Source: Candidatus Gastranaerophilales bacterium
Lineage (GTDB): Bacteria; Cyanobacteriota; Vampirovibrionia; Gastranaerophilales; Gastranaerophilaceae
Direction: 5' to 3'
Assembly (NCBI GenBank): GCA_947631645.1
Contig: CANRMD010000008.1
Location: forward strand, 1 to 60,602
DNA: 60,602 bases
In this document: piece after piece, positions 2,656 through 53,182 of the stretch
Numbering within the stretch: position 1 is the first letter of the stretch
Layout of the letters: each line of letters begins with the position of its first letter
Program-made: the position numbers and the translations under genes
The notes under the pieces: generated by a model
The model's input: only the letters and a program-made list of their open reading frames with translations
The model's database searches: none
What the model was told of the DNA's origin: nothing

Positions 2656-2925
2656 ATGATAAACGCTGTTTGTTTTCCTCAAAGATTTCAATATATAGTA
2701 AAAACAGGTGCACCAAAAAGAGATAATACCCCTTTAAATGCGGATGATTTTTTAAATATCGGTTATATGGCGGGAAGATTCGGAGTAAATCTCCAAAACC
2801 CTTATGAGGCTAATCCTGTTATAAAAAATGGTGCTGATACTTTTGTTAATATTAACTCTTGTACGGCTCCTTTGTTTGAAAATACTTTAAATCAAGCCGG
2901 CATTTTATTTGACCGTATTGCTTAA
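2656..2925 (+). CDS. Small unknown protein, 89 aa
   Basis: Starts at an ATG with AAAGGA upstream. The protein has no recognisable domain, no membrane helix and two cysteines. Its last 21 bases overlap the end of the convergent glycosyltransferase gene. A hairpin 40 bases upstream and a good ribosome binding site argue that it is real. It may be one of several lineage-specific small proteins in this window; function unknown. Confidence 0.6.
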   Translation: MINAVCFPQRFQYIVKTGAPKRDNTPLNADDFLNIGYMAGRFGVNLQNPYEANPVIKNGADTFVNINSCTAPLFENTLNQAGILFDRIA

Positions 2926-18836: not shown

Positions 18837-21800
18837 ATGATATGTCGCAAATGTGGAGCTGAAATACCTGATAATGCATTAAGATGTGAACACTGCGGGA
18901 TAAAAGTAAATATGTTTTGTCCTGAGTGTAATACTCTTAATACTTTTGGTGCTCAAACCTGTAAACATTGCGGTTTTGAACTTATTAAAATTTGTCCTCA
19001 GTGCTCATCTAAAAATTTATTTTCTGCTTCCGAGTGCAGAAAGTGTCATTATGATTTTAATAAAAATATGCAAATTTCTCATGATGCACCCATTAATGAT
19101 GATTTATCAATCGTAAGACCTTTTTCCAGTGAAGAACCTGCATTCGCAGCTTTTCAGGCGTTTGAAAAAAATATTGAACTTGATAATGAAAGTTCATCTC
19201 AACCAACAGAAGAAGAAAAAAATAAATTTTTTAAAGTTGAAGTTAAACCTGTTGAAGAAGAAATATATGAATACAGATACAGAAATAATACTTCGGAAGA
19301 TATTGATAAAATTATTTCAGATGCGATTAATGTTGCTCCGATAGAAGAAGTTGTTGATTATTCAGTTAAGGAAAGTTTGGAGCAAAATTATAATGATGAG
19401 TTTGAAAACAGCGATGAAGAACAAAAAGAAAGTGAAGATATTCCTTTAACGGCGGAAATTAAAGTTGAGGCGGTTCAAAAAATTGTAAATATAATAAAAA
19501 CTTCTCTGACAAAACATATTATTGCGGTTAACGGACCTGACGGAAGCGGAAAGTCAGCTGTATTAAAGCAAACTAACGATAATCTTTCAAAACAAGGGTT
19601 TATTTGTCTTTACGGAAGTTGTACTCCTCTTTTACAGATAACAAGCTTCGGTTTCTTTCAGGATGCTTTGCTCAGAATTATGGGTTTCCCGCCTTATACT
19701 AATAATATTGAAGCTTTTAGTAAAGAATTTAAAAAAAGTGATTTTGCTAAAAATTTTAACTTCCTTAACGGTAATGAATTAAATGCTTTTTTGAATATAT
19801 TTTACCCGTCTCAAAAAGATGATTTTGAAAATATTCTTGATAATAAAACAAAGATGTTTTCAATTTTAGAAAAAGTAATTAAATCATTTTTGGTTAATAA
19901 TAATCTTGTTATATCCGTTGATAACTTTGAATTGCTTGACGGAGCTTCGTATGATTTTATTTCATACATGCTTAATAAAGGCTATTTTAATAACAGATTA
20001 AAAATGATTATCAGTTACAAAGAAAATAAATCTATTCAAAGTTATTTTGACCTAACAAGTGCAAATGAAAACATTTTTGAAACTATTGTAATCAAAAAAT
20101 TTAACAATAATGAATTGATAAAGGCTGTTAGCAGTTCTGTCGGAATTAGGATTGACGAGGTATTAAATCAGGAATATTTAGACCGATTAATTCAAAAAGT
20201 TAACGGAAATGCCATAAGATTAGAACAAGAGATTGCTTTATTGACAGATACCGGATATATTAGCAAAAAAGGTAAAGATATATTTTTAAATGAAGATAAA
20301 AAACCTGAAATTGACCCGATATCTTTTGAAGAGCTTATAAAACTTCGATTAAATGCCTTAAAACCCGCACAAAAAAACGTTCTGTTTATGGCAGCTGTAA
20401 TGGGTTTCAGGTTTTCTGCGTCAATTCTTTGTATTGCGGTTAATAATCAAATCAATAAGACAGAACAAATACTTACCGAGCTTTTAAAGGGTATGTATAT
20501 TGTTCAGGTTGATAATTATACATGTGAATTTAAGAGCCTGACTTTATGGAAATTAATTTATCAGGAAGCAAAAGCTGATTTATTGTATAAAGAAAATGCG
20601 GAACATTTATTCAGTGCTTTCAGACCGCTTATATTATCAAGTAATGTACAAAAGTTAATTTCTTGTGCGGATGCAATATCTAAAAATGAAGCATTTACAA
20701 TATGGCAAGAAACTTCTGAAATTGCTGCTAAATTAGGGGATACAAATTTATATGTTATATCGAAAAAGCAGTGTTTAAAACTCCTTGATGAATTTGATAT
20801 TAACAATTCCGATAATATAAAAGCATTAATGTATGAAGAAATCGGTAAACTTCTTTGTGAAAAATCTCCGCAAGAGGCAATATCATACTTGTCTAATGTT
20901 TTAGATGCCGATATAAAAGCGGGAAATATTCTGAAAATAATAGATATTTCGGGATATTTTGTAAAAAGCTGCTATTTGACGGGGAATTATTTTGGAGCGG
21001 CTGAAGCTGTTGATGCAGTTGTTAATGCTCTTGAAACAAATAAAACAGATGCCTCAAATCTTGATATTGCCCTCATTAAAACAAGAAAACTTAAAGCGTT
21101 ATTAAACATCGGCAACAGCGAACAAATTATTAACCTTATTAATGATGATATTATTATTGAACTTGATAAAGCTTTAAATTTAAAACAATCGGATAATAAT
21201 TATCGAAATTTAATAATGAACGCCTGGATGAATTCAAAACTTACTTTAGCTAAAGCTTATTGTATTCAAGGCAATAACCATGCTGAAAATATTATTGATG
21301 AAATGAATGAATTTATAAAAAAATATGATTTTAATCAGCAATATTATGATGCTCATATTAAAATTATTGATGCTTTATCAAAAACTATGTCGGGTGATAT
21401 TCTCAAATCAGGTGAAATTCTTACCGAAATTTCTAATTTATATGCAAGAAAAGTAATGGATATAGATGCACTTGCGAATTGGAATCTTGTAAATATAATA
21501 AACAGAGTTCTTTTAGGTCAAAATAAAGATTTAAAAGTTGACTTATTTGAATTTGCGGCATTTGCTAATAATATTAACGAATACTTTATGAAAAATATAA
21601 TTAAATTAATTTTAGGTTATATATTGAAAAAAGAAGGAAATACAACAAAAGCTCTTGAGATATTTAATGACCAGATAACATATTTTGCAAAAGAAAAAGT
21701 TGCCATAGGTGCACTTTTGGCATGGGCTCTGATTGTTAAAATTTCAATGGAGATGGGTGATGATGATAAGGCTCTTAATACTGCTTCTAAATCTTTAGAA

Positions 21801-22172
21801 ATTGCTCAAAGTTCAAAAATAAACAATAATTTCTTTATTATATATTTCCAAATATTTCTTGCTCAAATATATATCCGCAAAAATGATTTTGCGGCAGCAA
21901 AAATGTATTTGGAAAAATCTATTATGATTGCTAAACAATTTAATTTAAGATACCAACTTATAGAACTTTATGTTGAGTATGCTAAATATACAGAAGAATT
22001 AATGAAATTTAAACATATTTATTCTTCAGAAAATCTAAATATTACGTTAGATATGTATAATAAAGCAGTAAACTTGGCAAAAGAATTGCATTTGGGGAAT
22101 ATGGTTGAATATACTTCACGTGAACGTTCGGGTTTTAAAACCTTTTGTCAGCTGAATGCAATTGAATTATAG
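18837..22172 (+). CDS. Zinc-ribbon, STAND-type ATPase with TPR-like tail, 1111 aa
   Basis: Three zinc ribbons open the protein (Cys 3,6,17,20; 28,31,42,45; 53,56,67,70). An acidic linker follows, then an AAA/STAND ATPase with Walker A GPDGSGKS near residue 231 and a Walker B-like strand LVISVDNFELL near 356-366, and a C-terminal helical-repeat region (about 590-1111) with TPR-like spacing. This is the plan of large signalling ATPases such as MalT-type regulators and cyclase-linked AAA-TPR proteins, but with zinc ribbons in place of an effector domain. It begins 8 bases after the sigma factor stop. An ATP-controlled hub for sigma activity is a guess from context. Confidence 0.82.
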   Translation: MICRKCGAEIPDNALRCEHCGIKVNMFCPECNTLNTFGAQTCKHCGFELIKICPQCSSKNLFSASECRKCHYDFNKNMQISHDAPINDDLSIVRPFSSEEPAFAAFQAFEKNIELDNESSSQPTEEEKNKFFKVEVKPVEEEIYEYRYRNNTSEDIDKIISDAINVAPIEEVVDYSVKESLEQNYNDEFENSDEEQKESEDIPLTAEIKVEAVQKIVNIIKTSLTKHIIAVNGPDGSGKSAVLKQTNDNLSKQGFICLYGSCTPLLQITSFGFFQDALLRIMGFPPYTNNIEAFSKEFKKSDFAKNFNFLNGNELNAFLNIFYPSQKDDFENILDNKTKMFSILEKVIKSFLVNNNLVISVDNFELLDGASYDFISYMLNKGYFNNRLKMIISYKENKSIQSYFDLTSANENIFETIVIKKFNNNELIKAVSSSVGIRIDEVLNQEYLDRLIQKVNGNAIRLEQEIALLTDTGYISKKGKDIFLNEDKKPEIDPISFEELIKLRLNALKPAQKNVLFMAAVMGFRFSASILCIAVNNQINKTEQILTELLKGMYIVQVDNYTCEFKSLTLWKLIYQEAKADLLYKENAEHLFSAFRPLILSSNVQKLISCADAISKNEAFTIWQETSEIAAKLGDTNLYVISKKQCLKLLDEFDINNSDNIKALMYEEIGKLLCEKSPQEAISYLSNVLDADIKAGNILKIIDISGYFVKSCYLTGNYFGAAEAVDAVVNALETNKTDASNLDIALIKTRKLKALLNIGNSEQIINLINDDIIIELDKALNLKQSDNNYRNLIMNAWMNSKLTLAKAYCIQGNNHAENIIDEMNEFIKKYDFNQQYYDAHIKIIDALSKTMSGDILKSGEILTEISNLYARKVMDIDALANWNLVNIINRVLLGQNKDLKVDLFEFAAFANNINEYFMKNIIKLILGYILKKEGNTTKALEIFNDQITYFAKEKVAIGALLAWALIVKISMEMGDDDKALNTASKSLEIAQSSKINNNFFIIYFQIFLAQIYIRKNDFAAAKMYLEKSIMIAKQFNLRYQLIELYVEYAKYTEELMKFKHIYSSENLNITLDMYNKAVNLAKELHLGNMVEYTSRERSGFKTFCQLNAIEL

Positions 22173-40374: not shown

Positions 40375-41550
40375 TTATTTCTTTAAAAATTCCGGAATAT
40401 CCAAAATATTATTAGCGAACTCTGCAGCTGCCTTTGAAACTTTTGGAGAAGGATTTGTATTTAACCCTGAACTGTTACCGCTGAATAAATCTAAAGCACC
40501 TAAAGTTTTTTCTTCTTCTTTTTGTGCAAAGTTATCAACTTGATTTTTCTTTAATTCAAAGCCTGTAGCAATAACAGTGATTTGAATTTCGCCTTGGATA
40601 CGGTCATCAATAACTGCACCAAAGTGAACTGTTGCATCTTCTGATATTGCATCATGAATAACTTTAGTTGCATCCGTTACTTCAAACAATGTCATATCAG
40701 GTCCGCCTGTGACGTTAATAATAAGACCTGAAGCACCGTTAATGGAAGTTTCTAACAGAGGTGAATTAATAGCAGATTTAGCAGCTTCTAAAGCTCTGCC
40801 TTCACCTTGACCTCTACCTATACCCATAAGAGCGGAACCTGATGATTCCATTACGCTTCTTACATCCGCAAAGTCTACATTTATTAATCCGGGAACGGTA
40901 ATGATATCTGATATGCCTTGAACACCTCTTAAAAGAACTTCATCAACAACTTGGAAAGCTTCTCTCATTGTTGCTCTTCTGTCAACAACTTCAAGTAACT
41001 TATCGTTAGGAATAACGATTAAAGCGTCAACGGTTTCTTTTAATTTTTCAATTCCCTGAATAGCCTGATTCATTCTTTTCTTGCCTTCAAAACTAAACGG
41101 TTTTGTAACAACACCGATAGTTAAAGCCCCAAGTTCTTTTGCAATTCTTGCTACAACAGGAGCTGCCCCCGTACCTGTTCCTCCGCCCATTCCGGCTGTA
41201 ACAAATACCATATCAGCTTTACCAATTGCATTAACGATTTCATCTCTTGTTTCTTCGGCAGATTTTTCGCCCTTTTCAGGGTTTCCGCCGGCACCTAAAC
41301 CGTTTGTTAATTTGCTGCCTATTCTTATTTTATTTTCGGCCAATGACATTTCAAGTACTTGAACATCAGTATTCATTGCCCAAAATTCAACGCCTGCAAG
41401 CCCTGCTTTTATCATTCTGTTTACGGCATTTCCACCGCCGCCGCCGACTCCTATTACTTTTATATCTGCAGGAGTTGCACCTGAATAATTAGTAGTGTTA
41501 TTATTACTGTTTTCTTTCTTGCCAAAAATGTCCGGAACAAAATTTTCCAC
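40375..41550 (-). CDS. ftsZ: Cell division GTPase FtsZ
   Basis: FtsZ polymerises into the division ring. The GTPase domain has [15 protein letters not shown], the tubulin signature GGGTGTG (122-128), the T7 loop NVDFADV and KPFSFEGK. The C-terminal peptide is DIPEFLKK, a good match to the conserved tail that binds FtsA/SepF/ZipA. The N-terminal extension of about 28 residues is polar. The start is GTG with GAGGG upstream. No ftsA, ftsQ or mur genes are adjacent, so it stands apart from a dcw cluster. Confidence 0.98.
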
Positions 41551-41724: not shown

Positions 41725-42249
41725 TTATAAATCTTTATTTGCTTTGCTTATTATATTTGCCGCTTGTGTTAAATTTTTTGCGATATCTTGGTATATTATG
41801 CTTGTTTCTCCGTATGGAATTGCTGTATTTAATAATTCATCTACGTTTTGGTTTATATTATTAAGGCTGTTTACTGTATTTTTTATGGTTTTAGTTTTTC
41901 TTTTTAAGAAAAAATAGTTAATTACGGGAGCTTTTTGCACGAATTTTCTAAGCTTGCTTTTTATTATTTCCGTTTTTGAGCTTATGAAAAAATTCCCGTC
42001 GCTTTTAACAATTTGATTTTCTTCCGCTTCATCAGGGAGGTAATCGCTGTCGAATGTATTTAGCCTTTTACTTTTTCTTTTCTTTTTAGCTTTGGAGGTT
42101 TTTGTTGTTTTTTCGGGAGTGTATTCGGATGCAAAAACATTTGTGGCAAAAGGATAATTTTCATTATCTATTGCCATATTTATAGTATTGCCCGTGTTTT
42201 TAGGGTAAAAATTTACGGGATTATTATAGCTGTTTGTAGATATTTCCAT
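41725..42249 (-). CDS. Unknown 174-aa basic protein
   Basis: No family is recognised. The N-terminal 45 residues are polar and Asn-rich, a strongly basic patch follows (KTSKAKKKRKSKRLN, about 50-64), and the C-terminal half looks helical. There is no membrane helix or signal peptide. GGGAAGA precedes the ATG. It starts 49 bases downstream of the last gene of the glycosyltransferase operon on the same strand, so read-through is possible. The basic patch could bind nucleic acid or polyanions, but this is only a guess. Confidence 0.65.
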   Translation of the reverse strand: MEISTNSYNNPVNFYPKNTGNTINMAIDNENYPFATNVFASEYTPEKTTKTSKAKKKRKSKRLNTFDSDYLPDEAEENQIVKSDGNFFISSKTEIIKSKLRKFVQKAPVINYFFLKRKTKTIKNTVNSLNNINQNVDELLNTAIPYGETSIIYQDIAKNLTQAANIISKANKDL

Positions 42250-42298: not shown

Positions 42299-43810
42299 TT
42301 AAATATATGATTCTAATTCGGGATATTTTTCGATTAAAAGTTTCTTTTCTTCGTCGGTTATATTTGTTTGTTGAATTGATTTAACCATATTTTCTCTGTA
42401 TTGGTCTTTAAATTCATCTTTTATCATACCGTAATAGTATAAAAGATTATGAATTTTATAAGTAAGAAAATCAAACCGCAGTATATTATATGTATTAGTT
42501 TCTTTCATCAGATTTTCAACAATATTAAATATTTCTATGTGGTCAATTAATCTTGCGTTATTATCGGTTAGAACGCTGCCTTCTCTGTTAAATCTGTATA
42601 CATAAAGTTTTTCTCTGATAAAGAACATACGTTCGGCTGTCAAAAGTGTACCGAAAATAACTTTATGGTCTTCAAAGTCCAAACCTTCCGCAAAGTCTAT
42701 ATTATACTTATCAAATAGTTCTTTTGTATACAATTTATTCCATACGCACATAGGGTATGAAAATGGTGATAAATCACGCCAGTTAAAAATTTTGTCATCG
42801 GGAATATTTTCAAAGTTTGCATCTACAAAATAAGGAAAAGGTGCATTAACGGCATTTTTTTCATCGTATCCGTCAGGCATGCACATTGCTATATCAAGGT
42901 TTTTCTCTTTAACTAAATTATACAGCCGTTCAAACATATTAGGTTTTACCCAATCATCGGGATCAACAAAACCTATACACTCCCCTGTTGCAATTCTTAA
43001 TCCGTCATTGCGGGCTGCTCCTGTTCCTTTATTTTCCTTATGTATGACTTTTATCCTGTTATCTTTTTTCTTATATTCTTCTAAAATATCGTAGCTGTCA
43101 TCTGTGGAACCGTCATTTATGCAGATTATTTCTATATCTTTTAAGGTTTGGTTTATTAAACTGTCTAAGGATTGTCTCAAATATTTCCCTACATTATAAA
43201 CAGGGAGAATAACGGATACTTTCGGTTTTTGTATATCGTTTGTTTCTTCGTGTGTTATCGGTTCTTCAATCGGGGTTTCCTTTTCGGGTCTTTTTTTAAG
43301 ATGTAATTTTTTCTCTATTTTTTTATGCAGATTTATAAGTTTTTTATAAGGTTTTAATTCATTTTCAAAAAATCTTTTTTGTTCCGCTATATATATACTC
43401 ATAGCTTCTTCTTGCACTTTAAATTTATCTTCTTGGGCTTTGAGCATTTCTTCATAGCCTTTTTTTATTTCGGCAATTTTTATTTCAAGATTATTTATAT
43501 GCCACTGTTCCGTTTCTTTTTGACGTTTTATGATTTCTTCTTCATACCAATTTTTTTGAGAGGCTAGTTGTTCTTCATAATATTTTTTTAAATTCTCAAT
43601 ATCTTGGGAGTTTTTTACATTGTAATATGCTTCAAGCGAAGCTTTTGCTTCTTGAACTTTATTGTCATTTTCTATCCTTATTTTTTCTTTTTCAAATTCA
43701 TATTTGGAATTTAAAAGCGAAAGTTCACTTTCAAAAGCACGTCTTTGTGTTTCTAAATCTTGTTTATATTGTTTTTCCAGTTTTATTATATCTTCGTTAT
43801 TATCTGCCAT
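42299..43810 (-). CDS. GT2 glycosyltransferase with N-terminal coiled coil
   Basis: Residues about 5-170 form a long charged coiled coil (EKQYKQDLETQRRAFESEL and so on). Residues about 198-330 are a GT-A GT2 domain with VSVILPVYNV, INDGSTDDS and the metal-binding FVDPDDW, followed by a helical C-terminal region with CVWNKLYTKELF. The domain order is the reverse of the other coiled-coil enzymes in the operon. There is no membrane helix, so it acts in the cytosol, probably building a surface polysaccharide or glycolipid. It is the last of seven genes, 2 bases after the previous stop. Confidence 0.9.
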   Translation of the reverse strand: MADNNEDIIKLEKQYKQDLETQRRAFESELSLLNSKYEFEKEKIRIENDNKVQEAKASLEAYYNVKNSQDIENLKKYYEEQLASQKNWYEEEIIKRQKETEQWHINNLEIKIAEIKKGYEEMLKAQEDKFKVQEEAMSIYIAEQKRFFENELKPYKKLINLHKKIEKKLHLKKRPEKETPIEEPITHEETNDIQKPKVSVILPVYNVGKYLRQSLDSLINQTLKDIEIICINDGSTDDSYDILEEYKKKDNRIKVIHKENKGTGAARNDGLRIATGECIGFVDPDDWVKPNMFERLYNLVKEKNLDIAMCMPDGYDEKNAVNAPFPYFVDANFENIPDDKIFNWRDLSPFSYPMCVWNKLYTKELFDKYNIDFAEGLDFEDHKVIFGTLLTAERMFFIREKLYVYRFNREGSVLTDNNARLIDHIEIFNIVENLMKETNTYNILRFDFLTYKIHNLLYYYGMIKDEFKDQYRENMVKSIQQTNITDEEKKLLIEKYPELESYI

Positions 43811-43812
43811 AT

Positions 43813-45291
43813 TTAGTTTTTCTTTATAATTTTCTTAAATTTATTTTTAATCTGTTCTGATTTTTTATAGAATTTTAATAATATTTTAACTAATAAAAAA
43901 TGATTTTCATAATAATTTTTTTGATCAATTAAAGCTTGCATATAATGTTGTTTTTGATTTTCCAGTTTCCATTCATAATCAGCCGTAAGTTTTTCTCTAA
44001 CTTGTTTAACGGATTCTGCTTGCCAAGATTTTAATTCATATTCTTGTTTTGTTAGTTTTTGTTGAAATTCATCATAAAGAGCTTTTAATTCTTCTGTTTT
44101 TTTTGATTCTAAAAATATAAATTGTTCATCTGCTCTTCTTTTAGCTTCTTTTTCCGTATGTTCTTCGCAGTAATTTTGCCACCAATCAACAATTTTATCT
44201 TTTTCGTCTTTTTGTTCTTTTTTATATTGTTCAAGATATTCTTTTATTGCAAGTATATCAAGATTGCATTTGTGTTCTGCTTCTTTTATTCTTTTATTTG
44301 AAGTTTTATATTTTTCAATTAAGAAATTCCAAAAGCCGAAATACGAACGTTCTTTTATATTGCAAAATTCATCCCAGCAGTAACTTTTTGCAAGAATTTC
44401 TTCATCTTCCTTTGTAAGTTCAATTTTTTGGAAAAATTCTTTCATTTTGCCATAGTAGTCTTCATAGTATTTATCTTCCAAAAGAGTATATCTGTGAAAA
44501 ATATCATCTATAATCCAGCTTACGATTTCGGGTTTTTTTATGGGGAAAAACTCTGCATTTTGAAGTATTTTATAAGTGAGTTCTACCATGGGAATACGGT
44601 CATATACTTTTTTATCAGAGTTTTGCATTGTGGAGTAGCTTCTGTTTTGACGGTAATAATAAGGTGCTTCCCACAGTATGTTTATTCTTTGAGCTTTTAT
44701 ATAAGTTTCAAAGAAAAAAGGTAAATCTTCATATATATATCCTGATTGAAGTTTAGCCCCTGTTTGCTGCAAAAATTCACGTTTGTATATTTTATTCCAA
44801 AGAACTACATTTATGTTTAAAATTTCATCAATAGTATCGTTAGGGTGAAAAACGGTATCTTTAAATTTTTCAAGCGGTTTTAAACTGTAATAATCATTTG
44901 TATAAAACCTTAATTCTTTATCATCGTACAATTGTGCTTGACACATAGTAATATCTGTATCATCCGACTTTGCTTTATTATACATTTTTTCAAAAAAATC
45001 GAGTTCAACCCAGTCATCAGAATCAACAAAGCCTATGTATTCACCCGAGGCAATTTCTATACCTAAATTTCTTGCATATGATTGTCCTGACGGTTTCCCT
45101 GTATTTAATATAATTATTCGTTTATCTTTTTGTGCGTAATTTTCTACTATTTCTTTTGATGAATCCGTTGACGCATCGTTAATACAAATTATTTCCGTAT
45201 CACTGAGTGTTTGATACATTAAACTTGAAAGACACTTTGATATATAATTTTCTACGTTTTGAAACGGTACAATTATTGATACTTTAGTCAT
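43813..45291 (-). CDS. GT2 glycosyltransferase with C-terminal coiled coil
   Basis: The GT-A domain (1-110) has VSIIVPFQNV, INDASTDSS and FVDSDDW; the GT-associated region continues to about 310 with VLWNKIYKREFL and YYRQNRSYS; the tail (about 320-470) is charged coiled coil, and the last 25 residues are basic. I start at the ATG at 45291, which overlaps the upstream stop as ATGACTAA; the longer reading to 45336 runs into the previous gene and adds a sequence unlike any GT2 start. It is closely related in its GT part to the 47691 gene. Confidence 0.9.
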   Translation of the reverse strand: MTKVSIIVPFQNVENYISKCLSSLMYQTLSDTEIICINDASTDSSKEIVENYAQKDKRIIILNTGKPSGQSYARNLGIEIASGEYIGFVDSDDWVELDFFEKMYNKAKSDDTDITMCQAQLYDDKELRFYTNDYYSLKPLEKFKDTVFHPNDTIDEILNINVVLWNKIYKREFLQQTGAKLQSGYIYEDLPFFFETYIKAQRINILWEAPYYYRQNRSYSTMQNSDKKVYDRIPMVELTYKILQNAEFFPIKKPEIVSWIIDDIFHRYTLLEDKYYEDYYGKMKEFFQKIELTKEDEEILAKSYCWDEFCNIKERSYFGFWNFLIEKYKTSNKRIKEAEHKCNLDILAIKEYLEQYKKEQKDEKDKIVDWWQNYCEEHTEKEAKRRADEQFIFLESKKTEELKALYDEFQQKLTKQEYELKSWQAESVKQVREKLTADYEWKLENQKQHYMQALIDQKNYYENHFLLVKILLKFYKKSEQIKNKFKKIIKKN

Positions 45292-46492
45292 CTTCGTTGA
45301 ATTTCTCCAGTTGTGAAAATTTAAATTTAAAATCAAATTTTATTTTTTTCAATATACGTACATAAATTCTATCATCAGAATAATAAATATCAAAAAATTT
45401 AGGGCGTTTTTTTATTCTTAATATATTTGTCTTGTATTTTAAATAATAAACACCTTCTTCATGGTATAAAATTTCCATAAGCTTGTACATTGATTTAAGT
45501 TTAAATTTTTGGAATTCATAAAAGAAAGTATTTCCTGTTTTTAGGTTTTTGAATAAAAAGTAATTATATCTAAACTTGCCTCTGACCATAGAGGGAGGAA
45601 ATAAATTTTCATCAATTAATGAGCTTTCGCGTTTTAATTTTTTTGCAAAAGCGGCTTTATATTTTGGGTTTAAGTGTTCAAATCTGTAGATAAAATCTTC
45701 AACTTTTTTTCTGAAAAAAATGTATTTAATATCGTCGAAATCTTCTAAATCTTTTATTTTGCCGAGCATAATTTCCGCTACATCAATAACGTTAAGGAAT
45801 TTTTTGCCCGCTTTTTGAATTATGGAATTTTTTCTGTTAATTCTGTAATAATACAAAAAATCTCTTACAATGGAAACTCTTTGAGTTTTAAAGAAAATAG
45901 TAAAGAAAAATGGTCCGTCTTCAAAAATAAGTCCGTCGGGGAATTGAGCCTTGCATTCTTCAATAAGGCTTCTTCGATAGAGTTTATTCCAAGCCATAAC
46001 GCATACATCCATTATAAAAGACTTTGTATCCTTATATGAAAATGCACGGTTGTCAAATGTATTATTGAAAAAACCTAATGTATAATACGGGTTTGAATCA
46101 TCAATATCCTGTTTCGTTTCATCATACTGATGAACGGCACATATAGATATATCACTGTTATATTCGGTTATATTGTTATACAGCTTTTCAAGCATTGTAT
46201 AATCAATCCAGTCATCAGAATCAATAAAGCTGAAAAACTCTCCTTTTGCGACTTTCATACCGGCATTGCGGGCAGAAGATAAGCCTCCGTTCTTTTTATC
46301 TACTATTATTATTCTTGAGTCTTTTTGTTTATATTCTTCAAGTATTTTTCTTGATGAGTCTGTTGCTCCGTCATTTACGCATATAATTTCTATATCTGAA
46401 AATGTTTGGTTTAGTATACTGTCCAAACATTTAGGTAAATATTCCTCTACATTATATACGGGTACTATTACTGAGATTTTAGGGTCTTTCAT
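45284..46492 (-). CDS. GT2 glycosyltransferase, paralogue of 46496
   Basis: The 402-residue protein has the GT-A domain with ISVIVPVYNVEEYL, VNDGATDSS, GGLSSARNAG and FIDSDDW, then the conserved FIMDVCVMAWNKLYR, LIFEDGPFFF and FLYYYRINRK. No coiled coil is attached. The C-terminal 60 residues (IKKRPKF, DDRIYVRILKKIKF) match the same part of the next gene upstream, and the two are most identical over the first 240 residues, so they arose by tandem duplication. The catalytic set is intact. Donor and acceptor are unknown. Confidence 0.92.
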   Translation of the reverse strand: MKDPKISVIVPVYNVEEYLPKCLDSILNQTFSDIEIICVNDGATDSSRKILEEYKQKDSRIIIVDKKNGGLSSARNAGMKVAKGEFFSFIDSDDWIDYTMLEKLYNNITEYNSDISICAVHQYDETKQDIDDSNPYYTLGFFNNTFDNRAFSYKDTKSFIMDVCVMAWNKLYRRSLIEECKAQFPDGLIFEDGPFFFTIFFKTQRVSIVRDFLYYYRINRKNSIIQKAGKKFLNVIDVAEIMLGKIKDLEDFDDIKYIFFRKKVEDFIYRFEHLNPKYKAAFAKKLKRESSLIDENLFPPSMVRGKFRYNYFLFKNLKTGNTFFYEFQKFKLKSMYKLMEILYHEEGVYYLKYKTNILRIKKRPKFFDIYYSDDRIYVRILKKIKFDFKFKFSQLEKFNEDD

Positions 46493-46495
46493 TTT

Positions 46496-47689
46496 CTACT
46501 TTTTTTCCAGCTTCGAATATTCAAATTTAAAATTAAACTTAATTTTCATAAATAATACTACATAAATTCTATCATTTTCATACCAAACATCATACAAGTT
46601 TGCACGTTTTTTTATTCTGAATTTTAAGCTCCAAAATTTAAAATAATATATATTTTCTTCCGTATACAAAACTTGCATTACTTTATACATAAATCTTATA
46701 ACGAATTTACGCCAATAAAAACTGAGAATGCTTGTTTTATGTTTTATTGCACATATACTTTTATAGGTTATGGGGTATTTTTCATTGATTAGAGCAAAAT
46801 CAAAAATATTTTCATCTAAAAGAAGTGAGTCTTTTTTAAATTTTTTGGAAAATTTGTTTTTTAATTTTAATCCGATAAGTTCATATCTGTAAATAATATC
46901 ATCGGCTTTTCGTCTGAAAAATTCATTTTTAACATCTTCAAATATTGGTGTTTGTTTAAGACTTTTTAGCATAAGGTTTACAACATCAATAATATCCAGA
47001 AATTGTATACCGCCTTTTTGAATAATAGAGCCTGTTCTGTTTATTCTGTAATAGTAGAGAAAATCTCTTATGATGGAAACTCTTTGAGTTTTAAAGAAAA
47101 TAGAAAAGAAAAAAGGCCCGTCTTCCCAGATTAATCCATCAGGAAATCTTGCATTGCATTCATCAATCAGACTTTTTCTGTATAGCTTATTCCAAGCCAT
47201 AACGCATACATCCATTATAAATGGTTTAGTATCAAGATAAGAAAAGGCTCTATTGTCAAAGGTTTCATCAAAATATCCCAAATTAAAATATTTATCATTA
47301 TCTTTTGTTTCTTTTGTCGTTTCATCATATTGATGAACCGCACAGATTGAAATATCTGAATTTAAGTCTGTTATGTTTTTATACAGTTTTTCAAGCATTG
47401 TAATATCAACCCAATCATCTGAGTCAATAAAACTGATAAATTTGCCCGAAGCTTCTTTTAATCCTACATTTCGGGCAGATGATAATCCCCCGTTTTCTTT
47501 ATCTATAATTTTTATTCTTTGGTCTTTTTGTTTATATTCTTCAAGAATTGCTCTTGATGAGTCTGTTGACCCGTCGTTTACGCATATTATTTCTATATCT
47601 TTAAATGTTTGATTTATTATTGAGTCTATGCATTGTTTTAAATAATTTTCAACATTATAAACAGGAACTATAACGGAGATTTCGCTCAT
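46496..47689 (-). CDS. GT2 glycosyltransferase, paralogue of 45284
   Basis: The 397-residue protein carries ISVIVPVYNVENYL, VNDGSTDSS, GGLSSARNVG and FIDSDDW, so it should be an active GT-A enzyme. Segments such as MDVCVMAWNKLYRKSL and FFKTQRVSIIRDFLYYYRIN are nearly the same as in the downstream paralogue. It ends with the basic IKKRANLYDVWYENDRIYV block. The distance to neighbours is 3 bases or less. The pair may add the same sugar at two positions or act on different acceptors. Confidence 0.92.
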   Translation of the reverse strand: MSEISVIVPVYNVENYLKQCIDSIINQTFKDIEIICVNDGSTDSSRAILEEYKQKDQRIKIIDKENGGLSSARNVGLKEASGKFISFIDSDDWVDITMLEKLYKNITDLNSDISICAVHQYDETTKETKDNDKYFNLGYFDETFDNRAFSYLDTKPFIMDVCVMAWNKLYRKSLIDECNARFPDGLIWEDGPFFFSIFFKTQRVSIIRDFLYYYRINRTGSIIQKGGIQFLDIIDVVNLMLKSLKQTPIFEDVKNEFFRRKADDIIYRYELIGLKLKNKFSKKFKKDSLLLDENIFDFALINEKYPITYKSICAIKHKTSILSFYWRKFVIRFMYKVMQVLYTEENIYYFKFWSLKFRIKKRANLYDVWYENDRIYVVLFMKIKFNFKFEYSKLEKK

Positions 47690-47690
47690 T

Positions 47691-49322
47691 TTATTTCTCC
47701 GATTTTTTTTGATGTTTTTCTATGAATTTTTTTAGGGGCGATTTCATCTCTTCTCTAAGTTTATCTTGCATTTCAATCATTTTTTTGTTAAAAATTTCTA
47801 TTTCTTCTTGATGCTTTTGTTCTTGAAGTTTAAATCTTTCTTCATATTCTTCTTTAAGTTTATTTATTTCTGAAATTGTGTTTTGTTTTTCGGTATCTAT
47901 TTTTAATTTAAGTGAATTTATATCTTTTTTATAAATATTGTCGTTTTGTAAAATTATATTTTTTATATCTTCTGTTTTATTATTGAGAAATTGTTTGTAT
48001 TCTTCTTTTGATTTTATTATTTCTTCTTTATTTTTTTCATTATCAATATTGATTTTGTTGGATAGGTTTGTTATTTGTTCCGTTACTTTAAATTGTTCTT
48101 TATTAAGTTCAATAAAATTATCTTTTTGAACGTAAGATAAATCTTTTATATCATTGTACAAGTGTTCTGATATTTCTTTTATATTATTATTTAAAGAACA
48201 ATTTGTCTTATTAACTAAATCTTCGGTATAATCGTAGTTCTTTTGTAAATCTTCATAAATTGCATTAAAACGCTTATCTGTTTCTTCATTATGGATTATT
48301 TTGGATAATAAACGGTTTTCTACTTCGTGTATATTCAAATATTCATTAAATACTTTTTTACTAAATTCTTCAAAAGAATTGTTCATTACAAGAATATAAC
48401 CCTGAAAATGATATACTGTCTTCCAATAATCATTATTAATATCCGAAATTTCAAGATTTTTAAATACTTTTTTCATCAGAAAGAAAAATTCCCGATGCAG
48501 ATTTTCTTTCATAAGTGAATATCTGTGAAATAAATCGTTTATAATCCAACCTTGAATTTGCATATTTAAATCATTTAAAAAAGGAAAAGATTTAATTTTT
48601 TCGTAAGTTAAAGAAACCATAGGTGGTCTATCTAATATTTTATTGTTAAACTGTTGCATTGTGGAGTTTTTACGATTTATTCTGTAGCAGTATAAATTTT
48701 TCCATACAATATTGATTCTTTTGGCTTTTAAGTATGTTCCGAAGAAAAACGGTAAATCTTCATAAATAAATCCTTCCGGAAACATTTCTCCGGTTGATAA
48801 TAAAAATTCTTTTTTATAAATTTTATTCCAAAGTGCAACATTTATATCAAGAATATTTGTTTTGGTGTCTTCTGCAGAAAATACTCCGTCTTTAAAACTG
48901 CCTAAAGGTGCTAAAGAGTAATAATCAGAAGTTATATATTTATTGTTTAAATCGTCATACTCTCTTGCCTGGCACATAGTAATATCTGTGTTGTTTTCTT
49001 TTGCACTGTTATATAAAAGTTCAAACATATCAGGTTCAATAAAATCATCAGAGTCAACAAAACCTATATACTCGCCTTGTGCGGTTTCTATGCCTCTATT
49101 ACGTGCAAAGCCTTGTCCTTTTTGTGTATCAATATCAATAATTTTTATTCTGCCATCATTATTTGCATAATTTTGAACGATTTCTCTTGATTTATCTTTT
49201 GATGCATCGTTTATTAGTATTATTTCAATATCATTTAATGTTTGATTTATTACACTTTTCAAACATTCTTCCATATAATTTTCTACATTATTAAAAGGTA
49301 TGATTATTGATATTTTTGGCAT
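47691..49322 (-). CDS. GT2 glycosyltransferase with C-terminal coiled coil and IYxxLxKNY module
   Basis: Residues 1-110 are GT-A with ISIIIPFNNVENYM, INDASKDKS and FVDSDDF; the GT-associated region runs to about 330 with NVALWNKIYKKEFL and CYRINRKNST. After that come AIYEDLQKNYDYTEDL (about 353-368), a relative of the repeat in the GT8 gene, and a long charged coiled coil to residue 543. There is no membrane helix. It starts 1 base after the upstream stop. The shared module suggests that its product binds the same partner as the next two genes' products. Confidence 0.9.
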   Translation of the reverse strand: MPKISIIIPFNNVENYMEECLKSVINQTLNDIEIILINDASKDKSREIVQNYANNDGRIKIIDIDTQKGQGFARNRGIETAQGEYIGFVDSDDFIEPDMFELLYNSAKENNTDITMCQAREYDDLNNKYITSDYYSLAPLGSFKDGVFSAEDTKTNILDINVALWNKIYKKEFLLSTGEMFPEGFIYEDLPFFFGTYLKAKRINIVWKNLYCYRINRKNSTMQQFNNKILDRPPMVSLTYEKIKSFPFLNDLNMQIQGWIINDLFHRYSLMKENLHREFFFLMKKVFKNLEISDINNDYWKTVYHFQGYILVMNNSFEEFSKKVFNEYLNIHEVENRLLSKIIHNEETDKRFNAIYEDLQKNYDYTEDLVNKTNCSLNNNIKEISEHLYNDIKDLSYVQKDNFIELNKEQFKVTEQITNLSNKINIDNEKNKEEIIKSKEEYKQFLNNKTEDIKNIILQNDNIYKKDINSLKLKIDTEKQNTISEINKLKEEYEERFKLQEQKHQEEIEIFNKKMIEMQDKLREEMKSPLKKFIEKHQKKSEK

Positions 49323-49323
49323 T

Positions 49324-50451
49324 CTATTTATCCTGAATTCTTATAAGTTTTTCATTTAACTCTTTATACATTTTTGTTAACTCTTCATAAAATAATGATG
49401 AAGTTTTGTTTATTTGTGAATACATTTTTTCCATATTGTCAGAAATAGTTTTTTCTATACTGATATTATCAACAGCATTTTTAAAACAATTTAAATCTGA
49501 TGGGTTTAAGGCTTTCAATTTTAAATCAGTTTCGTCAAACTTCATATCCATAAGTCTTTTTAGATTTACGTATCTTGTTATTATCTCTTTTTCAAGCTCG
49601 TTTATTTTGTTTGCTGCTGTTTGTATCGATGTCGTTTGATTATTATTTATTTCGTTAATTTTATCCGATATAAGATGTTCCGTGTATTCATAATTTTTTG
49701 TTATTTCTTCATATATTTTGTTTATTTCCGTTCCTTTTTTATTTATTTCGGAACCTATAAATTCATATATTTTTGAAATGTCTTCATATATTTTTTTTGT
49801 TTTATTTTCAATATCCTGATAAAGATTTTTTATATTTTCATCTATAATTTGTTTATATTCATAATCTTTTTGATAGAATAATTTTTCTAACTGATTGAAT
49901 CTTTGTAATATTTCATAATTTGAATTATTTATAGTTTCTATGTTTGATTTTGAAAAATTATTATATTGATTTTGAAAAGCTTCTTTGCAAGTATTTATTT
50001 CTTTTAAAGACTCTTCGAGTGCAAATTTTACTTTATCTTCAATTAATTGAGAAATTTCTATATCATTTTCAAGAAAAGAGCGTCTGTATAAGTGATTGGA
50101 TTTTATTTGAGTTTGAGCTTTCGAGTTTGTATATAAATATAAATTTTTAATATAATCAGGATTTAAAACTTCAGGATTGTCGATTACACAAACAAATTCC
50201 CCTGAGGCAGTTCCAAGACCTATCTTTTTTGCCGTTTCAATGTCGTTATTTATCGGCAAGCTTATTAATTTTATACGTTCATCTTTTAAAGCATTTTCTT
50301 TAACGACTTCTTCCGAGTTATCGGAAGCACCGTTATTAATACATATTATTTCGATATCAGAAAATGTTTGATTTATTGCACTTGTTACGCATTCCGGCAA
50401 ATTCTCTTTGTTGTTATATATTATTATTAAAGATATTTTTGGATTATTCAT
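49324..50451 (-). CDS. Degenerate GT2 domain fused to coiled coil
   Basis: The N-terminal 105 residues align with GT2 (ISLIIIYNNKENLPECV and SAINQTFSDIEIICIN), but the nucleotide-binding acidic motif is INNGASDNS instead of INDGSTDDS and the metal-binding DxD is VIDNPEVLNPD instead of FVDSDDW. The rest of the GT-associated domain is nearly gone, and a short RRSFLENDIEIS block leads straight into a coiled coil (about 130-375) with IYEEITKNYEYTEHL. The open reading frame is intact, so it is kept as a gene and not called a pseudogene. A non-catalytic scaffold or regulator is likely (inference). Confidence 0.82.
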   Translation of the reverse strand: MNNPKISLIIIYNNKENLPECVTSAINQTFSDIEIICINNGASDNSEEVVKENALKDERIKLISLPINNDIETAKKIGLGTASGEFVCVIDNPEVLNPDYIKNLYLYTNSKAQTQIKSNHLYRRSFLENDIEISQLIEDKVKFALEESLKEINTCKEAFQNQYNNFSKSNIETINNSNYEILQRFNQLEKLFYQKDYEYKQIIDENIKNLYQDIENKTKKIYEDISKIYEFIGSEINKKGTEINKIYEEITKNYEYTEHLISDKINEINNNQTTSIQTAANKINELEKEIITRYVNLKRLMDMKFDETDLKLKALNPSDLNCFKNAVDNISIEKTISDNMEKMYSQINKTSSLFYEELTKMYKELNEKLIRIQDK

Positions 50452-50454
50452 AAT

Positions 50455-52740
50455 TTATCTCTTTAGTTTCTTCATTAATTTTATAAATATGTTCTGTTTA
50501 CTTTCTTTAATTGTGTTCTCTATTAATTTTATTTGGTTTTCCATATTTATAAGTTTTTTTTCGTATTTTATTCTTTGGTAATTAATTTTTTCATCATATT
50601 CTGTTTTGAGCTTATTTATTTCTTCATTGTGATTAAATTCAATTAACTGTATTTTTTCATTAAATTCTGTTTGCAATGTATTTATTACATTTTGTTCAAT
50701 TTTGTCTTCAAGTTTGGTTTTTATTTTGTTAATTTCATAATTGGCATTTTCATCTGCTTTATAAAGGTCATTTAATTTATAGTTTATGTTTGCTTCTAAA
50801 ATATTCCCCGTGCTTTTTATTTCGTTGAATAAGTCTGAATTTTGATTATTTATGTATGCGTATGCTTCAGAAAATTTTAGTACGGTTTCTTTTCTTAAAT
50901 TATCAGTACTTTCTTTTAATTTCCATTCCGTAATGTCATTTGTAGTTTTAATCTCTTTCAAAAAATTGTTTTCAAGAGTATCTGCAGTTTCTTTAAGTTT
51001 TTGCGAAAAGTTGCTTTCTATATTATCTGAAGTTTCTTTTATGCTCTGATTTAAATTATTATATACTTCATCAATTTTTTGCTCTTGTTCGGCTTTTAAG
51101 TTTTGAGCAAGTTCATTGGTATAATTATAGTTTTTTGTAATTTCTTCATATATTTTAGAGATTTTTTCATCGGTATTTTGAATTGTGATATTATTTTGTT
51201 TTGTGATTTCTTCTTTGGTGAAATCGTAGTTTTTACCTATTTCATCATAGATGGCATTGATTTTTCTGTCAGATTCCTGATTATTTTCAGTAATAATATT
51301 ATTAAGCTTGTTGTCTGTTTCGAGGTTAAGAGAATAGACTTCTGTTTTTAAGTTTTGAGCAAGTTCATTGGTATAATTATAGTTTTTTGTAATTTCTTCA
51401 TATATTTTAGAGATTTTTTCATCGGTATTTTGAATTGTGATATTATTTTGTTTTGTGATTTCTTCTTTGGTGAAATCGTAGTTTTTACCTATTTCATCAT
51501 AGATGGCATTGATTTTTCTGTCAGATTCCTGATTATTTTCAGTAATAATATTATTAAGCTTGTTGTCTGTTTCGAGGTTAAGAGAATAGACTTCTGTTTT
51601 TAAGTTTTGAGCAAGTTCATTGGTATAATTATAGTTTTTTGTAATTTCTTCATATATTTTAGAAATTTTTTCATCGGTATTTTGAGTTGTGATATTATTT
51701 TGTTTTGTGATTTCTTCTTTAGTGAAATCGTAGTTTTTGCCTATTTCATCATAGATGGCATTGATTTTTCTGTCAGTATCGGCATTAATGTTTTTTATAT
51801 TATCTTTTGTATACTGATAATAATCATTAATAACCTTATAAGCTTTTTGTATGTCTTCATCGGTAGAATTAACTAGTATATTAGTAACACTTCCGCCAAT
51901 GCCGTTTTTAAGATATTTCCCGCTTGATATTTGTTTATATTGAGCAATCTTGTTCTTCCACGCACTAAAGGATAAATAGTAATAATATAAATCATAAACA
52001 CTGTGTTCAAACGGGATAAGCCATGGTTTAAATCTGCCTGCAAGATGTATTATATTAATTTGGGATAGCTTGGTATTATCTACTTTTTCATATTGAAAAT
52101 ATTGAAAATTCCAAGTATTATCAAGTTCTTTAATCTTTCCTGATAATACAACGTTGAATATATCTTGATCTTGCCAAAGAATTTTATCTTTATTATTTAG
52201 AGCATAATCAAAAAGAAGATTTTCAATGTTATTTTTACGCCAAAAATCAAGATTAATAAGCATTAAACCGGCATTAAAATATTTTTTTATATTTAATCTT
52301 AAAGCTTCTTTTTTTGACTCGGCATCAGGAACCATTGCCGCTGCATATTTTGAAATATCAATGTTATAAAGCTCTTTTAAAGAAGTTCTTACTATAATAT
52401 CACAATCAAGATAGAGTACTTTATCAAGTTTATTGAGGTATGTAGCAAGTTTAAATCTGTAATAAGTCGGTATTGTAACGTGATATTCTTTATTGTTTTC
52501 TTGCAATAAAGGACAATTTTTAAAATCATTATTATTAACTTTAATGTATTCAATATTAAAATTTTTAACATTTCTTAATAATTCTAATTTGTTTTTATCT
52601 TCTTTAGTAAGACCGCCATCAAGAATATAAAAGTTAACGTTATCATCAATATCGGCATTTTTAAGTATAGAAGCTATTGAAACCGCGGTTTGTTCTGTAT
52701 ATTTATTGTCTAAACTATAACAAATATTGTATTCAAACAT
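50455..52740 (-). CDS. GT8 glycosyltransferase with long repeat-containing coiled coil
   Basis: Residues 1-275 form a GT8 domain: YNICYSLDNKYTEQTAVSI, the metal-binding LDCD (111-114), FNAGLMLINLDFW, LWQDQDIFNVV and the HLAGRFKPW that binds the phosphate, as in LPS glucosyl/galactosyltransferases. Residues about 322-548 are tandem 84-residue repeats, each with two IYxEIxKNYxxT modules (IYDEIGKNYDFT and IYEEITKNYNYT), followed by more coiled coil to 761. It is the first gene of the seven-gene operon, with GGGATAAT upstream. Length polymorphism through the repeat is likely. Confidence 0.93.
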   Translation of the reverse strand: MFEYNICYSLDNKYTEQTAVSIASILKNADIDDNVNFYILDGGLTKEDKNKLELLRNVKNFNIEYIKVNNNDFKNCPLLQENNKEYHVTIPTYYRFKLATYLNKLDKVLYLDCDIIVRTSLKELYNIDISKYAAAMVPDAESKKEALRLNIKKYFNAGLMLINLDFWRKNNIENLLFDYALNNKDKILWQDQDIFNVVLSGKIKELDNTWNFQYFQYEKVDNTKLSQINIIHLAGRFKPWLIPFEHSVYDLYYYYLSFSAWKNKIAQYKQISSGKYLKNGIGGSVTNILVNSTDEDIQKAYKVINDYYQYTKDNIKNINADTDRKINAIYDEIGKNYDFTKEEITKQNNITTQNTDEKISKIYEEITKNYNYTNELAQNLKTEVYSLNLETDNKLNNIITENNQESDRKINAIYDEIGKNYDFTKEEITKQNNITIQNTDEKISKIYEEITKNYNYTNELAQNLKTEVYSLNLETDNKLNNIITENNQESDRKINAIYDEIGKNYDFTKEEITKQNNITIQNTDEKISKIYEEITKNYNYTNELAQNLKAEQEQKIDEVYNNLNQSIKETSDNIESNFSQKLKETADTLENNFLKEIKTTNDITEWKLKESTDNLRKETVLKFSEAYAYINNQNSDLFNEIKSTGNILEANINYKLNDLYKADENANYEINKIKTKLEDKIEQNVINTLQTEFNEKIQLIEFNHNEEINKLKTEYDEKINYQRIKYEKKLINMENQIKLIENTIKESKQNIFIKLMKKLKR
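51097..51776. repeat. Tandem 252-bp repeat within the GT8 gene, 2.7 copies
   Basis: Copy A is 51097-51348, copy B 51349-51600, partial copy C 51601-51776. A and B read as identical over all 252 bases; C differs from them at four positions in its 176 bases. The unit is a whole number of codons (84), so copy changes keep the reading frame. Identity at silent positions points to very recent duplication or gene conversion. Confidence 0.97.
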
Positions 52741-52867: not shown

Positions 52868-53182
52868 ATGGAAATACTCGAGGATATTGATTTAAAAAAA
52901 GTAGGACTTGAATTAATGTTCTTGACGCCCGAAAAATGTACAAGAGAGGGTGGAATTTCCGCTGTTGAACTTTCAAAATCACTTGATATGCCTCTTGATA
53001 CCGTTAAAAAGAAACTAAAAATATTGCTTGAAAAAGAAATAATAAGAGTTTACGGTATTAATCCAAAACTTTGGAAATTTGATGAATATAAATTCCAAAA
53101 AATGGATGAAGAAGATGATGTATACAGGCTTCTTTGTAATTTTGACGATGTGGATTTTGACAGATATTTTTCCTATAATTAG
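52868..53182 (+). CDS. Small winged-helix-like protein, 104 aa
   Basis: Residues about 8-75 fit a winged helix-turn-helix: GGISAVELSKSLDMPLDTV and KKKLKILLEKEIIRVYG are the HTH and wing strand, as in small MarR/ArsR-like or replication-type regulators. The tail is acidic (DEEDDVYRLLCNFDDVDFDRY). There is no sensor domain. It is divergent from the glycosyltransferase operon (spacer 127 bases, which includes the palindrome ATTGTACAAT at 52767), so it may regulate that operon, which is inference from position. Confidence 0.75.
   Translation: MEILEDIDLKKVGLELMFLTPEKCTREGGISAVELSKSLDMPLDTVKKKLKILLEKEIIRVYGINPKLWKFDEYKFQKMDEEDDVYRLLCNFDDVDFDRYFSYN

Follow-up and report, generated by a model that had tools for sequence, protein, structure and literature searches.

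A conserved glycosyltransferase operon of Candidatus Gastranaerophilales with long helical tails, shared repeats and a degenerate GT2 member

We describe here an operon of glycosyltransferase (GT) genes in a stretch of 60,602 nucleotides, hereafter the window, which is contig C8 of a 1.87-Mb Candidatus Gastranaerophilales genome (G+C content 24-36% in 2-kb steps). Positions 42299-52740 are occupied by seven minus-strand open reading frames (ORFs), namely a GT8, a GT2 remnant and five GT2s, transcribed in the order GT8, remnant, GT2_5, GT2_4, GT2_3, GT2_2, GT2_1 (the numbering is our own). Five of the seven products carry proline-poor helical segments of 165-480 residues, repeats and end modules are shared between them, and the gene order is conserved in the genus. 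We tentatively interpret the products as a peripheral-membrane set of glycosyltransferases, partly assembled through their coils, that would extend one conserved surface glycan, most likely a lipooligosaccharide (LOS) oligosaccharide.

The operon and its conservation

The genes and their parts are listed below; ORF calling was mechanical, and the start sites given are approximate.

50455..52740, minus strand: gene 1, GT8 (LgtC-like) with a helical repeat tail of about 480 residues; 761 aa; Pfam Glyco_transf_8, E 2.9e-47
50506..51948, minus strand: GT8 coil, residues 265-745, repeat xIYxEIxKNYxYT in 6 motif copies; periodicity p=0.0005, period 3.66
51094..51776, minus strand: tandem array in GT8, 2.7 copies of a 252-bp (84-aa) unit with 99% matches (TRF)
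50455..50583, minus strand: GT8 end module QRIKYE...KNIFIKLMKKLKR, residues 720-761; profile match to the GT2_5 ends of operons with swapped gene order
49324..50451, minus strand: gene 2, GT2 remnant (apparent pseudo-glycosyltransferase) with coil; 375 aa; partial Glycos_transf_2
49327..50049, minus strand: remnant coil, residues 135-375, one copy of the shared repeat; periodicity p=0.0005, period 3.62
47691..49322, minus strand: gene 3, GT2_5, GT2 with C-terminal coil; 543 aa; Pfam E 2.9e-37
47694..48335, minus strand: GT2_5 coil, residues 330-543, end EEMKSPLKKFIEK; periodicity p=0.0005
46496..47689, minus strand: gene 4, GT2_4, coil-free; 397 aa; Pfam E 1e-42
45284..46492, minus strand: gene 5, GT2_3, coil-free, apparent paralogue of GT2_4; 402 aa; Pfam, tree
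43813..45336, minus strand: gene 6, GT2_2, GT2 with C-terminal coil, apparent paralogue of GT2_5; 507 aa; Pfam, tree
43816..43923, minus strand: GT2_2 basic tail (YYENxFLLVKILLKFYKK...KKIIKKN); net charge, hydrophobic moment
42299..43810, minus strand: gene 7, GT2_1, N-terminal coil followed by GT2; 503 aa; Pfam
43283..43810, minus strand: GT2_1 N-terminal coil and basic end ENELKPYKKLINLHKKIEKK; periodicity p=0.002 (residues 1-165), end resembling the GT2_2 tail

Neighbouring genes are separated by 1-3 nt, the exception being GT2_3 and GT2_2, which overlap by 53 nt if the listed TTG is taken as the start of the latter. Since 17 of the 31 GT2_3-GT2_2 pairs in the set of loci described below overlap by 8 nt and begin GT2_2 at a conserved MTK, its true start in the window is probably 45291. 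The locus is as the preliminary description had it, seven packed GT genes on one strand, and neither a flippase nor a polymerase gene could be recognised next to them in the window. The five GT2s match the Pfam family Glycos_transf_2 at E 1e-42 to 5.9e-36 and the remnant matches it partially, over profile positions 4-102 of 168 (E 2.5e-21). The DxD motif is present in 21 of 21 GT8 homologues, and the alignment of GT2_1 homologues has a mean column identity of 76%. Outside the operon, 11 further GT2 matches are found in the genome, in open frames of 246-457 aa.

Close relatives are mostly Candidatus Gastranaerophilales metagenome-assembled genomes, including Ca. Avigastranaerophilus, with rabbit, ruminant and other animal guts indicated. 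They are drafts, broken within the GT8 repeats, and are not independent samples. Lack of co-occurrence in related genomes had been set beforehand as an outcome that would refute the idea of a scaffolded assembly, and the genes do occur together. Among 42 de-duplicated loci, GT2_2-GT2_1 adjacency is seen in 32, GT2_3-GT2_2 in 31, GT2_4-GT2_3 in 26 and remnant-GT2_5 in 22; these are counts of loci, many of them cut by contig ends, and one genome may supply two. De-duplication dropped loci with a GT2 or remnant protein identical to an earlier one, and those with no operon gene. All seven genes are present and intact in 12 loci (the window, L031, L032, L037, L039, L040, L041, L042, L043, L044, L045 and L056); in four of these, L039, L041, L044 and L045, the remnant and GT2_5 have changed places. 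GT2_1, N-terminal coil included, was recovered from 34 of the 41 genus genomes; among the 26 genomes with a completeness of 90% or more and a contamination of 5% or less, 22 have it.

The flanks of the operon are conserved too: in the same 42 loci the helix-turn-helix (HTH) gene adjoins GT8 in 18, GT2_1 adjoins the gene for a 174-aa protein in 23, and the latter adjoins ftsZ in 26, so that the operon usually lies next to ftsZ. In the window these neighbours are:

52868..53182, plus strand: divergent gene for a 104-aa winged-helix protein, a candidate regulator; weak HTH_24 match below the cut-off
41725..42249, minus strand: 174-aa protein in the operon-ftsZ interval (ORF), without a Pfam or NCBIfam match at E 0.001
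40375..41550, minus strand: ftsZ; Tubulin E 6.9e-52 and FtsZ_C (Pfam)

The operon was not found in three genus genomes, G008, G032 and G178. An empty site is visible in G008, where the HTH and 174-aa genes are neighbours separated by 171 bp (L115). In G032 other genes follow the 174-aa gene (L114), and neither GT2_1 nor a coil-bearing GT8 was found. Elsewhere the operon lies apart from ftsZ (G024; L043, L117), GT2_2 is missing at the locus (G140; L107) or GT2_4 is missing (L079). G021 retains the HTH gene beside GT8-remnant-GT2_5, with another gene after GT2_5, an arrangement resembling a split operon. Extra ORFs lie between GT2_1 and the 174-aa gene at L051 6587-11194, L060 6573-9335, L061 10145-12415 and L065 3767-8430, and this interval seems open to insertions. 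A homologue of the HTH gene adjoins another GT2 cluster in another genus (L100 2456-4158), so that this gene may regulate glycan loci.

The dead GT2 and selection

The aspartate motifs of DDxS type and DxD are the donor-site motifs of GT2 enzymes. Both patterns are missing from the remnant in 29 of 29 homologues, which bears out its earlier description as a degenerate GT2; 14 of the 29 do contain the looser string D.D at some point within their first 130 residues. Both patterns are kept in every homologue checked of GT2_1 (34), GT2_4 (27) and GT2_5 (23). The DxD pattern is unmatched in two GT2_2 and two GT2_3 homologues, where YVDSDD or YIDSDD, also a DxD, is found, and the DDxS-type pattern of GT2_2 is unmatched in L064 and L065. 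By these motifs the remnant is apparently no longer an enzyme, and the GT8 and the five GT2s are probably six active ones.

The remnant is nevertheless not freely decaying, since its ratio of nonsynonymous to synonymous change (dN/dS, omega) is below 1 in nine of nine species pairs, with point estimates of 0.06-0.41 for the GT part and 0.10-0.63 for the coil. Pairs in which both genes are complete were used. For the other coils omega is 0.00-0.13 in GT2_2 (nine pairs) and 0.05-0.24 in GT2_1 (eight pairs), and, with the repeat register uncertain, 0.04-0.28 in GT8 (six pairs) and 0.17-0.65 in GT2_5 (nine pairs). These low values already disfavour the idea that the coils are functionless slippage products of an AT-rich genome, as does the conservation of the repeat motif and end modules between species. 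The 99% matching copies of the 252-bp unit and the large length variation are what slippage would produce, but as an account of the coils we consider it highly improbable.

Helical segments, shared repeats and end modules

The longest proline-free stretches are 518 residues in GT8, 281 in GT2_5, 238 in GT2_2, 218 in the remnant and 153 in GT2_1. Among the 41 window ORFs of at least 150 aa, these rank 1, 3, 4, 5 and 7 (the last tied with 8), respectively. Helical periodicity was assessed by comparing the hydrophobic residues with 2000 shuffles over a range of periods (floor p=0.0005); this test replaced one at period 3.5, and the period was in effect picked after a first look. The GT8, remnant and GT2_5 coils all lie at the floor and that of GT2_1 at p=0.002; two control GT domains give p=0.73 and p=0.52. 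The GT8 value is flattered because non-independent tandem copies were tested as one sequence. The periods of the four significant coils, 3.62-3.70, are hendecad-like (11/3, the classical value being 3.5) and suggest coils of hendecad rather than heptad type. In the period-3.5 test, carried out in 35-residue windows, no segment is marked outside GT8, the remnant and a 36-residue piece of GT2_3. We regard the label of coiled coil as sound but not proven for the five segments, and weakest for GT2_2. Matches of the GT8 coil to structures in the PDB (designed helix bundles, apolipoprotein, haemagglutinin) are weak, look compositional and were not used.

GT8, remnant and GT2_5 have in common a repeat some 40 residues long (core I..VYxEITKNYxYT), present in 18 of 19 GT8, 14 of 21 remnant-class and 13 of 20 GT2_5-class ORFs; the remnant class here includes a non-remnant ORF with a low score. 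The strict motif is not seen in the GT2_5 of the window. Of 148 unlabelled ORFs two contain the repeat, each of them a fragment at a contig end that lies immediately upstream of the remnant. The other 11 labelled classes have no ORF with it.

The coil ends are likewise related. Where GT8 and GT2_5 are both complete (15 operons), the strict end pattern QR[IV][KH]YE marks GT8 alone in 11 operons and GT2_5 alone in four, with no operon having it on both or on neither. The four are exactly those with swapped gene order, and the profiles of the GT8 end and of their GT2_5 ends match with a probability of 99.5 and 53% identity. From this joint swap of module and order, the tails read as separable from their catalytic domains. 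The GT2_2 and GT2_1 coil ends are also alike (profile probability 92.7). In these comparisons L038 and L050 were dropped from the standard GT2_5 tails, the 31 pattern-bearing of 33 GT2_1 ends were used, and L084 contributed neither to the tail sets of GT2_2 and GT2_1 nor to the length spreads. The last 24 residues of GT2_2 carry a net charge of +7 to +10 in 33 of 33 homologues, again without L084. The hydrophobic moment of this tail is high relative to shuffled sequences (p=0.024 for the window copy); the GT2_1 end also has a low p, and the ends of GT2_3 and GT2_4 do not.

Lengths fall into two patterns. GT8 ranges from 340 to 1315 aa (21 complete) and GT2_5 from 477 to 1154 aa (23 complete), with coefficients of variation (CV) of 0.31 and 0.27 in the 15 operons. 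The CVs of GT2_1, GT2_2, GT2_3 and GT2_4 are 0.022, 0.028, 0.009 and 0.009, GT2_4 being 396-411 aa in 27 homologues.

Proposed assembly

We propose that the helical coils hold the six probably active enzymes close together. GT8, the dead remnant and GT2_5 would form one coil set through their common repeat, with the remnant as its non-catalytic subunit, while GT2_2 and GT2_1, whose coils are C-terminal and N-terminal respectively, would form a second pair of fixed length. The coil ends, QRIKYE on GT8 or GT2_5 and the basic YYE...KK of GT2_2 and GT2_1, may attach the set to the inner membrane or to some shared partner; docking on the membrane is suggested by the basic coil ends together with the precedent of the LgtC tail. 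Variation in repeat number would alter the reach of the GT8 and GT2_5 arms. The preliminary description called the enzymes cytosolic and free of membrane helices: the latter fits our results, but 'cytosolic' may be too simple because several coils finish in short, basic, possibly membrane-docking segments. A more elaborate and rather unlikely version is a machine of interchangeable coils, with two coil sets joining the enzymes on the membrane and the dead GT2 as structural hub, in which repeat expansion and end-module exchange re-tune which enzyme carries the anchor.

Likely product

The closest solved relative of the GT8 profile is LgtC (1g9r, E 6e-37). As LgtC is the nearest relative and LpxK and GT9 are genus-wide, in 39 and 41 of 41 genomes respectively (gene presence), we place the product, with moderate confidence, as the extension of a lipooligosaccharide-type glycan. 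LpxK and GT9 are also present in the operon-less G008, G032 and G178, so that the operon would extend lipopolysaccharide (LPS) rather than found it. A Wzy_C-family protein, possibly the ligase, is encoded in 38 of 41 genus genomes. Co-loss of Wzy_C and operon was considered as a test of the ligase link and rejected: Wzy_C was not found in G002, G008 and G014, of which only G008 lacks the operon. In the window's own genome a 442-aa Wzy_C-family protein (contig C29; L124 2867-5754) lies, as we read the sequence, two genes downstream of an RfaE-like sugar kinase; it may be an O-antigen ligase or resemble IctB.

Among solved proteins GT2_1 comes nearest to GalT1 (5hea, E 6e-41), which we take to act on serine-rich adhesins; the stretch of GT2_1 that matches solved GT2s best is its GT2 part (profile from 198 on) and not the coil. 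This raises the question of whether the operon glycosylates proteins, as do the GT clusters of serine-rich adhesins, an idea with which the lack of a recognised flippase or polymerase beside it also agrees. LgtC, the nearest relative of the GT8, belongs to LOS synthesis, however, and no adhesin or accessory secretion gene adjoins the operon in the window by eye, a weak argument as relatives' neighbours are mostly unlabelled. We think protein glycosylation improbable.

Evidence against the proposal and competing readings

A number of observations weigh against the interpretation of the operon as a coil-assembled, membrane-docked LOS pathway. As to the coils, the periodicity of GT2_2 is not significant (p=0.07, 2000 shuffles), and the period-3.5 test marks nothing in GT2_5, GT2_2 and GT2_1, three of the five; the earlier claim of coiled coils on five products is sound but not proven, and weakest for GT2_2. 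GT2_3 and GT2_4 have no coil, so that not every enzyme could be tethered in this way. The standard-operon GT2_5 ends also match the GT8 end (profile probability 97.0) as a looser relative of the module, and because of this resemblance 'one module per operon' is valid for the strict pattern only. As to docking, hydrophobic moments of the GT8 and GT2_5 tails are no better than shuffled (p=0.26 and p=0.11), the GT8s of the four swapped operons have no basic tail, and the uncharged end of the remnant does no worse than the basic ones (p=0.017), so that the moment test alone cannot identify membrane helices. As to the glycan, the operon lies outside any LPS cluster, flanked by the HTH gene and ftsZ, with the window's LpxK and GT9 about 8-10 kb off, and Wzy_C does not track it, G032 having kept the protein with the operon missing. 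Finally, the operon seems dispensable, as it was not found in G008, G032 and G178; its genes are spread over three contigs in G021 (L038, L108, L109); and in G010 the GT8 is elsewhere (L046, L116), that of L046 being almost coil-less.

To these must be added that the length of GT8 does not follow that of GT2_5 (rho -0.14, p 0.62, n=15 operons), which disfavours end-to-end pairing of the two. Length matching was discarded as evidence of coil pairing, including the GT8/remnant rho of 0.88, since the species are related and remnant length is nearly constant. Of the scaffolded multi-enzyme assembly put forward in the preliminary description, the shared coil repeats and the conserved dead enzyme fit; the building of a glycan in fixed order, also put forward there, is speculative.

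Two other readings of the coils draw on the same facts. In one, each coil merely homodimerises or homotrimerises its own enzyme on a stalk, there is no cross-binding, and the repeats spread by duplication or recombination within the operon. The uncorrelated lengths agree with this, as do the presence of the strict end module on GT8 or on GT2_5 depending on the operon and the close paralogy of GT2_2 with GT2_5 and of GT2_3 with GT2_4, through which shared tails could be inherited. Yet GT8 has this repeat and end module despite belonging to a different family from the GT2s, omega is below 1 for the retained dead subunit and gene order is strongly conserved; this explanation we find doubtful. In the other, the variable GT8 and GT2_5 coils would be chain-length rulers resembling WbdD, setting the distance between catalytic sites and hence polymer length. 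Both proteins do have a catalytic head, a variable-length coil and a mostly basic end, and the same part order is given for WbdD (PMC11231755). Against this, none of the seven proteins has a terminator domain (methyltransferase, kinase or other) in Pfam, and the two lengths vary independently. Moreover, Wzt_C (PF14524) is not found in the own genome and has one match among the 38 genomes searched (23 of the genus), in the operon-bearing genus member G014, in a search that does not cover a domain-less Wzt. A ruler is accordingly quite unlikely, and we retain the coil-assembled LOS pathway as our working interpretation.

Origin of the genes and other observations

In an unrooted maximum-likelihood tree of 73 domains, a starred split (98/97) separates GT2_2 and GT2_5 from GT2_1, GT2_3, GT2_4 and the outside sequences, and GT2_3 and GT2_4 form one starred clade. 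Because of these groupings GT2_2/GT2_5 and GT2_3/GT2_4 look like duplicate pairs. The position of the remnant is unsure on account of long branches, its own above all.

Among 383 genomes of the family, with the two best GT8 candidates per genome scored, the matches listed that extend beyond profile position 320 belong to this genus and to G186, of another genus; the G186 match is identical in place and score to that of G181. Of the 30 GT8 matches, 10 stop no more than about 110 bases short of a contig end. G181 is the genome of L084, a four-gene version of the locus encoding GT8-coil, GT2-coil, a GT2_3-like protein and coil-GT2_1, with a GT8 repeat of the same kind by eye. Its GT2_1 is sister to the genus GT2_1s in the tree and its GT2_2-like gene is unplaced. 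Since the GT2_3-like gene groups with GT2_3, not below the GT2_3/GT2_4 split (96/84), this version may be reduced rather than ancestral. The same genome has a coiled-coil-like open frame of 1683 aa (L125 4197-9245), a GT8-profile match that was dropped as no GT domain was seen by eye. No viral relatives of GT2_1 were found in viral_contigs.

Near the other end of the window, and apparently unrelated to the operon, lie a Glyco_tranf_2_3-type GT2 that is membrane-spanning by eye (7052-8410) and a PMT_2-like membrane protein (2905-4950). A DUF1822 protein with a very acidic stretch (15598-18177) and a zinc-ribbon/AAA/TPR protein (18837-22172) are also encoded, with a sigma-like ORF (by eye) between them.

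Comparison with known systems

In our view it is largely open whether bacterial glycan enzymes act singly or in ordered assemblies. Here tethers, a dead subunit and an end module carried by one enzyme or the other are visible in sequence and vary across some 34 related genomes, which makes the question accessible to experiment. The operon also offers an entry to the surface glycans of Gastranaerophilales, cyanobacteria-related gut bacteria known here from assembled genomes. No paper on it was recognised in the open-access literature searched, a body that mostly excludes subscription journals.

GT2_1 is similar in sequence to the GalT1-type GT2 of 5hea and to the GT2 of 5tze, which we take to be TarS, but the gene settings of these presumably differ from that of the operon. 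We know of no LOS glycosyltransferase set with shared coils or a dead subunit. LgtC, the GT8 of Neisseria LOS synthesis, is nonetheless the nearest domain match to the operon GT8, and the enzymes are alike non-membrane-spanning. The C-terminal tail of LgtC is predicted to be a membrane-facing amphipathic helix of basic character (PMC9952996), and the GT2_2 and GT2_1 coil ends are basic too; the LgtC tail has about 25 residues, in contrast to the repeat coil of about 480 in the operon GT8.

The nearest precedent, by analogy, would be the coiled-coil O-antigen proteins WbdD and WbbB (E. coli O9a; Klebsiella O3/O5/O7/O12). WbdD combines catalytic sites with a coiled coil and an end that associates with the membrane, and WbbB unites polymerase and terminator within a single protein (PMC11231755). 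The features in common are a catalytic head and a long coil, which in the known systems is of functional length (PMC11231755); a membrane-facing end and a multi-module enzyme assembly would be further ones on the reading proposed here. Unlike them, the operon has no terminator domain, its catalytic domains being only of GT2 and GT8 type (Pfam), there is no Wzt_C match in its own genome, and its coils are spread over five separate genes, one of them catalytically dead by motif. It may, then, be a variant of coil-organised glycan assembly in the spirit of WbdD, rather than a member of the WbdD/WbbB family.

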